Shown here one piece after another: positions 24,139-25,607 of a DNA stretch of 38,572 nt. The stretch spans positions 1 through 38,572 of the forward strand of contig JAADFW010000091.1 in assembly GCA_013152655.1 (NCBI GenBank). Direction: 5' to 3'. Every line of letters starts with the position of its first letter. Position 1 is the stretch's first letter. The stretch comes from Chlorobiota bacterium. GTDB taxonomy: Bacteria; Bacteroidota; Bacteroidia; Bacteroidales; B39-G9. A program made the position numbers and the translations under genes. The notes under the pieces are model-generated. The model made no database searches and was not told where the DNA came from. It saw nothing but the letters and a program-made list of their open reading frames with translations.

Positions 24139-24212
24139 TCCTCTTTAGCTCAGTTGGTTAGAGCACCTGACTGTTAATCAGGGGGTCCTAGGTTCAAGTC
24201 CTAGAAGGGGAG
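24139..24212 (+). tRNA. tRNA-Asn (GTT)
   Basis: A complete cloverleaf: acceptor TCCTCTT/AAGGGGA with one G-T pair, D stem GCTC/GAGC, anticodon stem CCTGA/TCAGG with loop CTGTTAA (anticodon GTT, asparagine), variable loop GGGTC, T arm CTAGG-TTCAAGT-CCTAG, discriminator G. CCA is encoded at 24213-24215, unlike the tRNA-Val in this window. Everything from U33 onwards is repeated 382 bases downstream, so the 3' half may have been supplied by an inserted unit. Confidence 0.97.
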
Positions 24213-24217
24213 CCAAG

Positions 24218-24251
24218 AAAAAGCCGGAGTCGAATGATTCTGGCTTTTTTT
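24218..24251 (+). terminator. Terminator of tRNA-Asn (first copy)
   Basis: The A-run and AAAGCC (24220-24225) pair with GGCTTT (24242-24247) and the stem continues inward with wobble pairs to about 12 bp, followed by seven Ts. It lies only 8 bases upstream of the nuclease start codon, so the nuclease gene would need read-through or its own start signal. Confidence 0.85.
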
Positions 24252-24259
24252 ATAATAAA

Positions 24260-24559
24260 ATGAAAGCATTTTGTTACATATTAAAGAGCCAAAAACTAAA
24301 TAAATTTTATATAGGTGCAACGACAGCGAAACCAAATATTAGATTAGAAAGGCATATAAAAAAATACTATGGATACAAAAAATTTACCTCACATGCAGAT
24401 GATTGGGAGCTTTTTCTATCAATAGAATGTGAAAGCATGCATCAAGCTGTTCTAATCGAAAAGCATATAAAACAAATGAAAAGTAAAAAGTACATTGAAA
24501 ATCTGGTAATATATTCAGAAATTACTCAAAAGCTTCTATTTAAATATAAGGCTTGTTAA
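24260..24559 (+). CDS. GIY-YIG nuclease family protein (single domain)
   Basis: A 99-residue stand-alone GIY-YIG nuclease. The first motif reads CYILKS (Tyr6) followed by FYIGAT (Tyr17-Ile18-Gly19). RLERH supplies the catalytic Arg28 and His32, and AVLIEKHIK supplies the metal-binding Glu67. KSKKYIENL closes the domain. The catalytic set looks complete, so the enzyme may be active, making metal-dependent DNA strand breaks. No DNA-binding extra domain is present. The gene starts 8 bases after the tRNA terminator, and its last codon and stop (TGT TAA) are formed by U33-G34-U35 and U36-A37-A38 of the second tRNA-Asn 3' half. Small proteins of this type are usually annotated UvrC-like endonucleases; a homing-type role is suggested here by context. 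Confidence 0.9.
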   Translation: MKAFCYILKSQKLNKFYIGATTAKPNIRLERHIKKYYGYKKFTSHADDWELFLSIECESMHQAVLIEKHIKQMKSKKYIENLVIYSEITQKLLFKYKAC

Positions 24560-24610
24560 TCAGGGTGCCGAAAGCTTTCGGCATAGGTTCAAGTCCTAGA
24601 AGGGGAGCCA
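24554..24610 (+). pseudogene. tRNA-Asn 3'-half remnant
   Basis: A second copy of tRNA-Asn from U33 to the CCA end. The anticodon loop end, the 3' strand of the anticodon stem, the T loop, the acceptor 3' strand and CCA are identical to the intact gene. The D arm and 5' acceptor strand are missing. The variable loop and first T-stem base (GGTCC) are replaced by an 18-base palindrome, which turns the first T-stem pair into a mismatch. It cannot give a normal tRNA. Confidence 0.9.
24566..24583. repeat. Perfect 18-base palindrome inside the tRNA remnant
   Basis: TGCCGAAAGCTTTCGGCA equals its own reverse complement. It sits exactly where the intact tRNA has the variable-loop bases GGTCC, flanked on both sides by sequence identical to the tRNA. 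It could be a nuclease or repair scar, a protein-binding site, or a small palindromic repeat. Confidence 0.9.
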
Positions 24611-24612
24611 AG

Positions 24613-24646
24613 AAAAAGCCGGAGTCGAATGATTCTGGCTTTTTTT
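24613..24646. terminator. Terminator, second copy
   Basis: Identical to the terminator of the intact tRNA. Because it has an A-run before and a T-run after the stem it can also act on the minus strand. The stop codon of the aldo/keto reductase (24647-24645) lies within its T-run. Confidence 0.75.
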
Positions 24647-25607
24647 ATTCCTTTAAATCAAAAGCTTCAAAAGGTATAAAGTCAAGGTCTGAAGCTATTA
24701 CATTTTTTTCCTGTACTTGCTGAATAGTTTTCCCGCCGGGAATTACCACATGGCATGCCGGATGTGAAACGCAAAACCGAAGGCTAAGTTGTGCCGGGCT
24801 GTAATCCGGATAAGCATTAAACAAAGGTTGATATTTTACAAAATTATCAAGATATGCAGTTAGCTTTTCAGGTGAAAGATTAAACCTCCGGTGGTCGTTC
24901 TTCCCAAAAGTATCATTCCGTTTGAATTTTCCTGATAATAATCCAAATAACAAGGGAATGCGTACAATAACACCCGTTCCATATTTAATAGCCAAAGGGA
25001 ATAAAACATTTTCAGCTTCTCTCTCCAGAAGGTTATATCTTACCTGAATAATATCAATCAGTTCATGATGCTTTTCAAGAATATGTGCCTGGCTTGTTTC
25101 CTTAAACGACTGTACACTCCAGCCGGCATGTTTAATTTTCCCTGCCTTTTTCAATTTTTCCAGTGCCAGCCAGGGCTCGTCTTGCTCTAAAATTTCAAGT
25201 CCGGGGCTATGCAGTTGAAGTATGTCTAATGCCTCAATATTAAGGCGTTTTAAGCTTTGTTCCACCGCAAATTCAAGGTGTTTAACAGAATAATCTTCGT
25301 TAGCAGGTGTGATTTCATGGTTTTGTCCTATGAAAGGATAAAAATTATTCCCTGCTTTTGAGGCTATCACAATTTTGTCTTTATCAGTTCTTTCGTCTAA
25401 CACTTGGCGAATTAATTCCTCAGAATGCCCAAATCCATAAACATCAGCTGTATCTATAAAATTTACTCCTGCATCGAGAGCTGCATGAATTGCTTTACGT
25501 GAATTTTCATCATTTGTGTTTCCCCAATCGCGTCCGCTGATTCCCCAAGCTCCAAAACCAACTGTTGATATTTCAGGGCCGTTTAAACCAAGTTTTCTGT
25601 ATTTCAT
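24645..25607 (-). CDS. Aldo/keto reductase
   Basis: A 320-residue NAD(P)H-dependent oxidoreductase with the AKR (beta/alpha)8 barrel. The catalytic tetrad is complete: Asp52 and Tyr57 in IDTADVYGFGHSEE, Lys84 in IVIASKAGN and His133 in DILQLHSPG. The NADP-binding end includes VVIPGGKTIQQVQEK, close to the family's IPG motif. It resembles the AKR11/YajO-like group of general aldehyde reductases; the physiological substrate is unknown. It is monocistronic. Its last codons read DLKE, and its stop codon is inside the tRNA-repeat T-run. Confidence 0.93.
   Translation of the reverse strand: MKYRKLGLNGPEISTVGFGAWGISGRDWGNTNDENSRKAIHAALDAGVNFIDTADVYGFGHSEELIRQVLDERTDKDKIVIASKAGNNFYPFIGQNHEITPANEDYSVKHLEFAVEQSLKRLNIEALDILQLHSPGLEILEQDEPWLALEKLKKAGKIKHAGWSVQSFKETSQAHILEKHHELIDIIQVRYNLLEREAENVLFPLAIKYGTGVIVRIPLLFGLLSGKFKRNDTFGKNDHRRFNLSPEKLTAYLDNFVKYQPLFNAYPDYSPAQLSLRFCVSHPACHVVIPGGKTIQQVQEKNVIASDLDFIPFEAFDLKE

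Follow-up and report, generated by a model that had tools for sequence, protein, structure and literature searches.

Does a single small nuclease gene, lying between an intact tRNA and a second piece of the same tRNA, amount to a mobile element of its own? The question is raised by a tRNA-Asn gene on a 38,572-nucleotide contig of a Chlorobiota bacterium, the whole of which is referred to here as the window. A preliminary description of the locus had proposed a very small unit that sits at the tRNA and keeps it whole by means of a duplicated part. This proposal has held up, and the same architecture was found at many other tRNAs.

The tRNA-Asn locus and its nuclease

The layout given in the preliminary description, with an intact tRNA-Asn, a terminator, a 99-codon GIY-YIG gene, a partial tRNA and a second terminator, is correct (Table 1), except that the second tRNA copy is not a clean half from U33 to the CCA end, since the palindrome TGCCGAAAGCTTTCGGCA, which had gone unnoticed, replaces bases 46-50. 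The 65-base block at 24189-24253, which includes the strong hairpin terminator, is repeated at 24584-24648, and the two copies agree base for base, as had been reported. This is the sole exact direct repeat of at least 20 bases in the 38.6-kb window and is therefore not due to chance. The break had been placed at U33 in the anticodon loop; the exact match starts in the T-arm instead. In related units the position at which the partial copy begins on its left varies widely, from a point upstream of the tRNA to the T-arm, so that the anticodon loop has no special standing.

Table 1. Features of the tRNA-Asn locus, with positions in the window
Feature	Position	Strand	Evidence
Intact tRNA-Asn(GTT), encoded CCA included	24139..24215	+	ARAGORN; Rfam RF00005, 70.7 bits
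tRNA terminator: hairpin, then T run	24216..24253	+	Fold -20.7 kcal/mol, z -7.0
99-codon GIY-YIG nuclease gene, domain-only, SLX1/UPF0213-like	24260..24559	+	ORF of 99 aa; Pfam, profile and fold comparison
Pseudo-tRNA copy, left part (tRNA bases 34-45), TGTTAATCAGGG	24554..24565	+	Sequence comparison
18-base perfect palindrome TGCCGAAAGCTTTCGGCA, in place of tRNA bases 46-50	24566..24583	+	Sequence comparison
Pseudo-tRNA copy, right part (tRNA bases 51-77)	24584..24610	+	Sequence comparison
Terminator, second copy	24611..24648	+	Exact repeat

The insertion measures 395 bases and comprises the nuclease gene, the palindrome-interrupted partial tRNA and the terminator. The tRNA fragment contains, and so supplies, the TAA stop codon of the gene (24557-24559). 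The only full-length match to the tRNA-Asn sequence found in the genome was the copy at 24139-24215. As the GIY-YIG open reading frame is the only protein gene between the repeats, a tRNA-integrating element with integrase or transposase cargo was rejected, and so was a group I intron with a GIY-YIG homing endonuclease, given that the tRNA is uninterrupted and that, apart from the tRNA itself, Rfam gave no match to an intron or any other RNA at the gathering score. The earlier statement that integrase, transposase and intron are all lacking is thereby confirmed.

The encoded protein of 99 residues matched the Pfam domain GIY-YIG (PF01541, E = 3.7e-10), and residues Y17, G19, R28, H32 and E67 are invariant in the family, with Y6 conserved in at least 90%. 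In comparisons of its profile with solved structures, the best score was obtained for the UPF0213 protein 1zg2 (E 1.3e-14), followed by SLX1 (E 3e-7) and I-TevI (E 1e-3). A Foldseek search with the predicted structure (pLDDT 82.8) returned only UPF0213 and SLX1 structures at ranks 1-7, with UPF0213 best and SLX1 next. Profile and predicted fold thus agree in placing the protein in the SLX1/UPF0213 lineage of GIY-YIG domains, further from I-TevI. SLX1 is a structure-specific nuclease of branched DNA. NCBIfam provided no name for the protein, and tblastn searches with it gave neither phage nor plasmid homologues, on which ground a phage or plasmid origin was rejected. Among 15 family members, 2-3 had weak matches to PHROG homing-endonuclease profiles and 10 had weak matches to the PADLOC candidate-defence profile PDC-S14 (best E 6e-6).

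Units at tRNA genes and their descent

We built a family profile from 15 members, mostly tRNA-linked, and searched 119 genomes of the class, 87 of which contained the family. From this search 108 loci were drawn. An intact tRNA was located within 200 bp of the nuclease gene in 76 of them (63 upstream, 13 downstream), and this linkage of 70% is an upper-biased figure, because the profile was itself built mostly from tRNA-linked members. The tRNA was on the strand of the nuclease gene in all 76 cases and on the opposite strand in none. The preliminary description had suggested a survey of small GIY-YIG genes flanked by tRNA parts. At 63 of 73 testable loci, part of the same tRNA was found again beyond the nuclease gene; in 10 of the 73, a detectable partial copy was absent. 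Of the 63 partial copies, 45 were interrupted.

Five of seven small GIY-YIG matches in the window's own genome were tRNA-linked, at Asn, Gln (two contig ends), Arg and Leu. At the tRNA-Gln unit, seen at two contig ends, the partial copy is split by a long hairpin, and the tRNA-Leu unit is cut off at a contig end. The tRNA-Arg unit is a mirror image: the duplicate lies upstream, derives from the 5' part of the tRNA and is divided by the perfect palindrome CCTGCCTGCCGGCAGGCAGG; such mirror-image units, with the 5' tRNA part duplicated, also occur elsewhere in the family. The window protein has homologues in relatives, most of them encoded immediately 3' of an intact tRNA, whose palindrome-split copy then follows the gene; the tRNAs concerned are Met, Phe, His, Val, Leu, Asn, Pro and Thr. 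Overall, units were present at nearly all tRNA types, including in cultured strains and single-contig genomes.

We also searched 84,980 named genomes independently of the nuclease, for tRNA D-stem sequence joined to the pattern TCCCGA..TCGGGA. This yielded 116 loci, of which 76 were near tRNAs and 45 near a GIY-YIG gene, and many of those with neither came from other phyla and appeared chance-like. Among the hosts were cultured strains of Chryseobacterium, Algoriphagus, Aquimarina, Pedobacter, Fulvivirga and Echinicola. Two tandem units are present behind tRNA-Arg in Chryseobacterium jejuense, and tandem arrays ranged from two to ten copies.

The longest array, L190 (G546:C9:904800-911600), contains ten near-identical 457-bp GIY-YIG units in tandem behind tRNA-Met; a second array in the same genome (L174/L189) has five units behind tRNA-Asn, 379 bp apart, the last of them truncated. 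Five loci (L162, L172, L178, L188, L263) have a 5' partial tRNA copy immediately before the intact tRNA, with the GIY-YIG gene coming after the latter. The D-loop of these copies is replaced by a palindrome, mostly TCCCGATAGCTATCGGGA, and they indicate that scars are left on the 5' side too. Similar units were observed outside Bacteroidota in metagenome-assembled genomes of Kiritimatiellae (L129), Ignavibacteria (L094, L121) and Marinimicrobia (L101), which could be explained by transfer or by binning errors.

A small GIY-YIG clade (L245-L249, L252, L253, L255-L259) has no nearby tRNA and mostly no flanking repeats, and is perhaps a vertically inherited housekeeping branch. The preliminary description had named a GIY-YIG gene at the same place without a tRNA repeat as a finding that would speak against mobility; this minority clade, however, forms a separate branch of the tree. 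No other structured RNA was found as host of the non-tRNA members in 20 loci.

At the orthologous tRNA-Asn, recognised by the adjoining pfkB gene (63% identical), two same-family genomes (G397, G398) have just the single tRNA followed by its terminator. The empty site anticipated in the preliminary description thus exists, and in four further genomes of the order no GIY-YIG gene was found beside the pfkB-adjoining tRNA-Asn. In another genome of the family (G396), this tRNA-Asn is occupied by another nuclease (36% identical), which is present in two copies and has a different palindrome and break point, so that the same arrangement at the same place by vertical descent only, which had been offered as the counter-case, is not what is seen. 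One orthologous tRNA-Asn site hence shows absence, presence and independent occupancy, that is, the presence/absence polymorphism expected of a homing gene.

To compare the nuclease tree with targets and hosts, we counted character changes on a thinned set. The tRNA isotype required 52 changes, against 84 in shuffled data (minimum 76), and the host family 75 against 73, a comparison of limited power (84 rows, 39 families). The tree follows tRNA identity and not host family, and nuclease lineages keep one tRNA type across host families. Tracking of the target rather than the hosts, as in homing genes, is therefore seen here, within the limited power for hosts.

Within one genus, a homologue was present in 52 of 101 species. 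All homologues of at least 62% identity with a called tRNA were at tRNA-Val, and more distant ones at Arg, Pro or Ala. The close homologues differed by dS values of about 0.5-2, and dN/dS in one lineage within the genus was 0.04-0.17, indicative of purifying selection. Together with the persistence at tRNA-Val, these ratios imply that the nuclease is kept functional and that the target changes rarely. Cassette movement may be rare, since the synonymous divergence of the nuclease in this genus is such as ordinary genes might show, and since its close homologues stay at tRNA-Val. The exact repeat had been taken as a sign of recent insertion or of gene conversion. The divergence of these homologues lends no support to recency, and gene conversion explains exact repeats equally well, so that the repeats do not decide the age of the insertion.

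The interrupting palindrome

The exact sequence TGCCGAAAGCTTTCGGCA has a single occurrence in its own genome, and 394 other genomes of the phylum lack even its 16-base core. A genome-wide repeat of this sequence was therefore rejected; only the type of palindrome recurs, not its sequence. A hairpin stem of at least 5 was present in 40 of the 45 interrupting inserts, compared to a mean of 4.9 and a maximum of 12 for shuffled inserts, and a strict test requiring a stem of at least 6 at the insert ends gave 24 against a shuffled mean of 0.11. GC hairpins after nuclease genes were about 28 times denser than in control flanks (3.26 versus 0.114 per kb). The replaced tRNA segment is recurrent for each type: positions 29-45 in Val, which is exactly the 17-base anticodon arm, 26-35 in Asn and 38-47 in Met. 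It is the D-loop in the 5' copies and the T-loop or variable loop in others.

In the set of tRNA-Asn palindromes the outer TCCCG/CGGGA is constant and two inner pairs co-vary, with 100% pairing and a covariation of 0.425 compared to 0.081 for shuffled data. When mapped on the protein tree, palindrome classes required 16 changes versus a mean of 24 (minimum 20) for within-isotype shuffles; the classes were defined after the sequences had been seen, and a class-free similarity correlation served as a check. For elements at the same tRNA, palindrome similarity correlated with protein distance (r = -0.44, matched in 0 of 2000 permutations), and across different tRNAs the correlation was weak and not significant (p about 0.18). 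The palindrome type thus tracks the nuclease lineage within a tRNA type, from which it follows that the palindrome belongs to the cassette: it is inherited with the nuclease lineage and travels with the cassette.

Palindromes of the TCCCGA..TCGGGA type were counted 1-90 times per genome, as against 0-9 for a reversed control pattern, mostly away from tRNAs, and they occur elsewhere in these genomes with neither tRNA nor nuclease. With a spacer of 2-12 bases, TCCCGA(N2-12)TCGGGA, they are found tens of times per genome (e.g. G396, G450, G504), many outside tRNAs, and some lie inside another dispersed repeat (TGTCATTTCGACGA..GAGAAATCTC). An origin from REP elements mobilised by RAYT transposases was rejected, since no TCCCGA-type palindrome was close to the gene at 30 Y1 transposase loci in 8 genomes, a small sample.

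Tandem arrays of palindrome and pseudo-tRNA also exist without the nuclease, including at a tRNA-Pro in the window's own genome. This array (L283, G000:C26:7000-10000, reverse strand 1093-1880) lies behind tRNA-Pro(TGG). Its tandem units, of which there are at least five, measure about 140 bp and have a partial tRNA-Pro and a terminator each, the anticodon arm being replaced by TCCCGATTAGCATCGGGA.

Candidate mechanism, alternatives and known systems

Each cassette consists of an SLX1/UPF0213-type GIY-YIG domain of about 80-100 residues and an intact host tRNA, mostly accompanied by a hairpin-interrupted partial copy of the same tRNA, and the cassettes multiply in tandem. We consider it probable that the locus belongs to a widespread Bacteroidota family of minimal, tRNA-specific, homing-like selfish cassettes that are spread and amplified by break repair, where cutting and mobility are inferred from the comparative data. 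The nuclease would break the DNA at its own tRNA locus, and homologous repair against tRNA sequences would copy the cassette into alleles that lack it. The same repair would amplify the cassette in tandem, much as SegB does for tRNA-Tyr in phage T6. By bringing along or duplicating the 3' (or 5') part of the tRNA, the cassette would leave one intact tRNA each time, so that the host does not lose an essential tRNA and stays alive.

With less confidence, the palindrome may be the cis-acting partner or structural target of a structure-specific nuclease. A cut there would leave ends with tRNA homology on both sides, and repair from the intact tRNA could amplify or move the cassette. This role is favoured because the pairing is kept while the sequence changes and because the type follows the nuclease lineage; changing sequence with kept pairing is compatible with an enzyme that recognises a cruciform or hairpin. 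In classical homing, the occupied allele is protected because its target site is split. The intact tRNA beside the unit is unsplit, which means that the tRNA either is not the target or is protected in some other way, and argues against simple resistance by interruption.

The interruption could also serve to destroy. If, like SegB, the nuclease recognises the sequence of tRNA genes, a palindrome that abolishes the recognition site, or the homology for recombination, would make the pseudo-copy uncuttable and keep the repeats from recombining the cassette out. This would account for the location of the palindromes within the tRNA-derived part and not beside it, at recurrent positions for each tRNA type (as for Val, Asn and Met above), and by our reading the SegB motif RAWTSGAAC (PMC13096335) matches, on the other strand, the T-loop of tRNAs, where several units are interrupted. 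The intact tRNA next door, however, remains uncut and unprotected, 27-70 bases of homology are still present on the terminator side, and any random insert would do, leaving the kept pairing with changing sequence unexplained; we regard this account as rather unlikely. The abundance of TCCCGA-type palindromes away from tRNAs and nucleases means that the palindrome could be a repeat in its own right that ends up in pseudo-tRNAs. Taken further, a tRNA-associated GIY-YIG gene would merely coincide with an unrelated, REP-like, genome-wide repeat, which accumulates in non-essential tRNA copies because it is lethal in the intact tRNA. The genome-wide excess over the reversed control and the nuclease-free arrays, such as that at tRNA-Pro, are in line with such a coincidence, but the 28-fold hairpin density in pseudo-tRNAs relative to control flanks, the match between palindrome type and nuclease lineage within one tRNA type, and the distance from Y1/RAYT transposase genes at the 30 loci make it unlikely.

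That the partial copies are functional RNAs, acting as decoys or regulators with a hairpin in place of the anticodon arm and with the nuclease as a partner in RNA processing or defence, seems improbable. The exact replacement of the tRNA-Val anticodon arm, the covariation in the tRNA-Asn set, the duplication of terminators along with the copies and the weak PDC-S14 matches could all be read in this way. Yet the replaced segments vary with tRNA type and often cut across arms (Asn 26-35, Met 38-47, 46-50 in the window), most copies have no 5' half and hence no possible tRNA fold, and the nuclease domain resembles the DNA-acting SLX1/UPF0213 proteins. Very improbable is an ordinary local tandem duplication, or an assembly artefact, of a vertically inherited housekeeping gene of UPF0213 type that happens to adjoin a tRNA: despite the closeness of the family to housekeeping-like UPF0213 proteins and the minority clade without tRNA, the units are found at nearly all tRNA types, in cultured strains and single-contig genomes and always on the tRNA strand, empty sites exist, and host family does not explain the tree.

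A bolder reading can be put forward tentatively, as a possibility that we would not yet bet on: a categorically new minimal mobile element, whose single structure-specific GIY-YIG domain acts on a hairpin-forming palindrome in a copy of the host tRNA. Palindrome cutting, with host recombination, would then make the units grow in tandem and spread towards tRNAs, and neither integrase, transposase and intron nor classical split-site homing would be involved. The nuclease-free arrays would be non-autonomous derivatives mobilised in trans.

The nearest known system is SegB of phage T6, a free-standing GIY-YIG nuclease beside tRNAs that cuts inside tRNA genes, prefers the motif RAWTSGAAC and, together with phage recombination proteins, causes tandem amplification of the tRNA plus nuclease (PMC13096335). 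SegB and other free-standing GIY-YIG homing endonucleases of T-even phages resemble the cassettes in that the gene lies beside tRNAs of many isotypes and in the tandem amplification (PMC13096335), and both tRNA adjacency and tandem amplification of the segment were observed here. The cassettes differ in being chromosomal and domain-only (about 80-100 aa), in their proximity to SLX1/UPF0213, in the palindrome-interrupted partial tRNA copy and in the ties of lineages to one tRNA type. Tyrosine-integrase elements at tRNA 3' ends (e.g. PYG1, PMC9897764) are likewise flanked by one intact and one partial tRNA, so that the tRNA stays functional, whereas the cassettes have no integrase, measure about 0.4 kb, duplicate either the 3' or the 5' part and have the partial copy interrupted by a palindrome. 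Short, GC-rich, dispersed palindromes are also characteristic of REP elements with TnpA-REP (RAYT) transposases (PMC6006769, PMC3733652), but the palindromes here do not flank Y1 transposase genes and are located in pseudo-tRNAs beside GIY-YIG genes. UPF0213/SLX1 GIY-YIG proteins (PDB 1ZG2, 1YWL, 7CQ2) are alike in sequence profile and fold. An SLX4-binding C-terminal domain is missing from the nuclease described here. To our knowledge, UPF0213/SLX1 GIY-YIG proteins have not been described as tied to tRNAs or as mobile.

GIY-YIG homing genes near phage tRNAs, integrases that duplicate tRNA ends and dispersed palindromes are thus all known. In the open-access papers searched, we found no description of a 0.4-kb GIY-YIG cassette that is chromosomal, specific to one tRNA type, accompanied by a palindrome-split tRNA copy and distributed over a large part of a phylum. 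The family is widespread in Bacteroidota and apparently undescribed, and there is a real chance that its mechanism is of a new kind.

If the homing-like reading is true, the cassettes would be among the smallest autonomous-looking selfish units known, with about 0.4 kb and one protein of roughly 90 residues, and they would apparently exploit essential tRNA genes in bacteria whose phylum is dominant in guts, soils and seas. The finding from phage SegB that a GIY-YIG nuclease can amplify tRNAs would extend to bacterial chromosomes, and odd tRNA fragments, false tRNA calls and contig breaks in Bacteroidota genomes would in part be explained. The family would also be a ready system for studying how a nuclease parasitises a tRNA without killing its host, and it offers a first handle on the substrates of the uncharacterised SLX1-like GIY-YIG proteins of bacteria.
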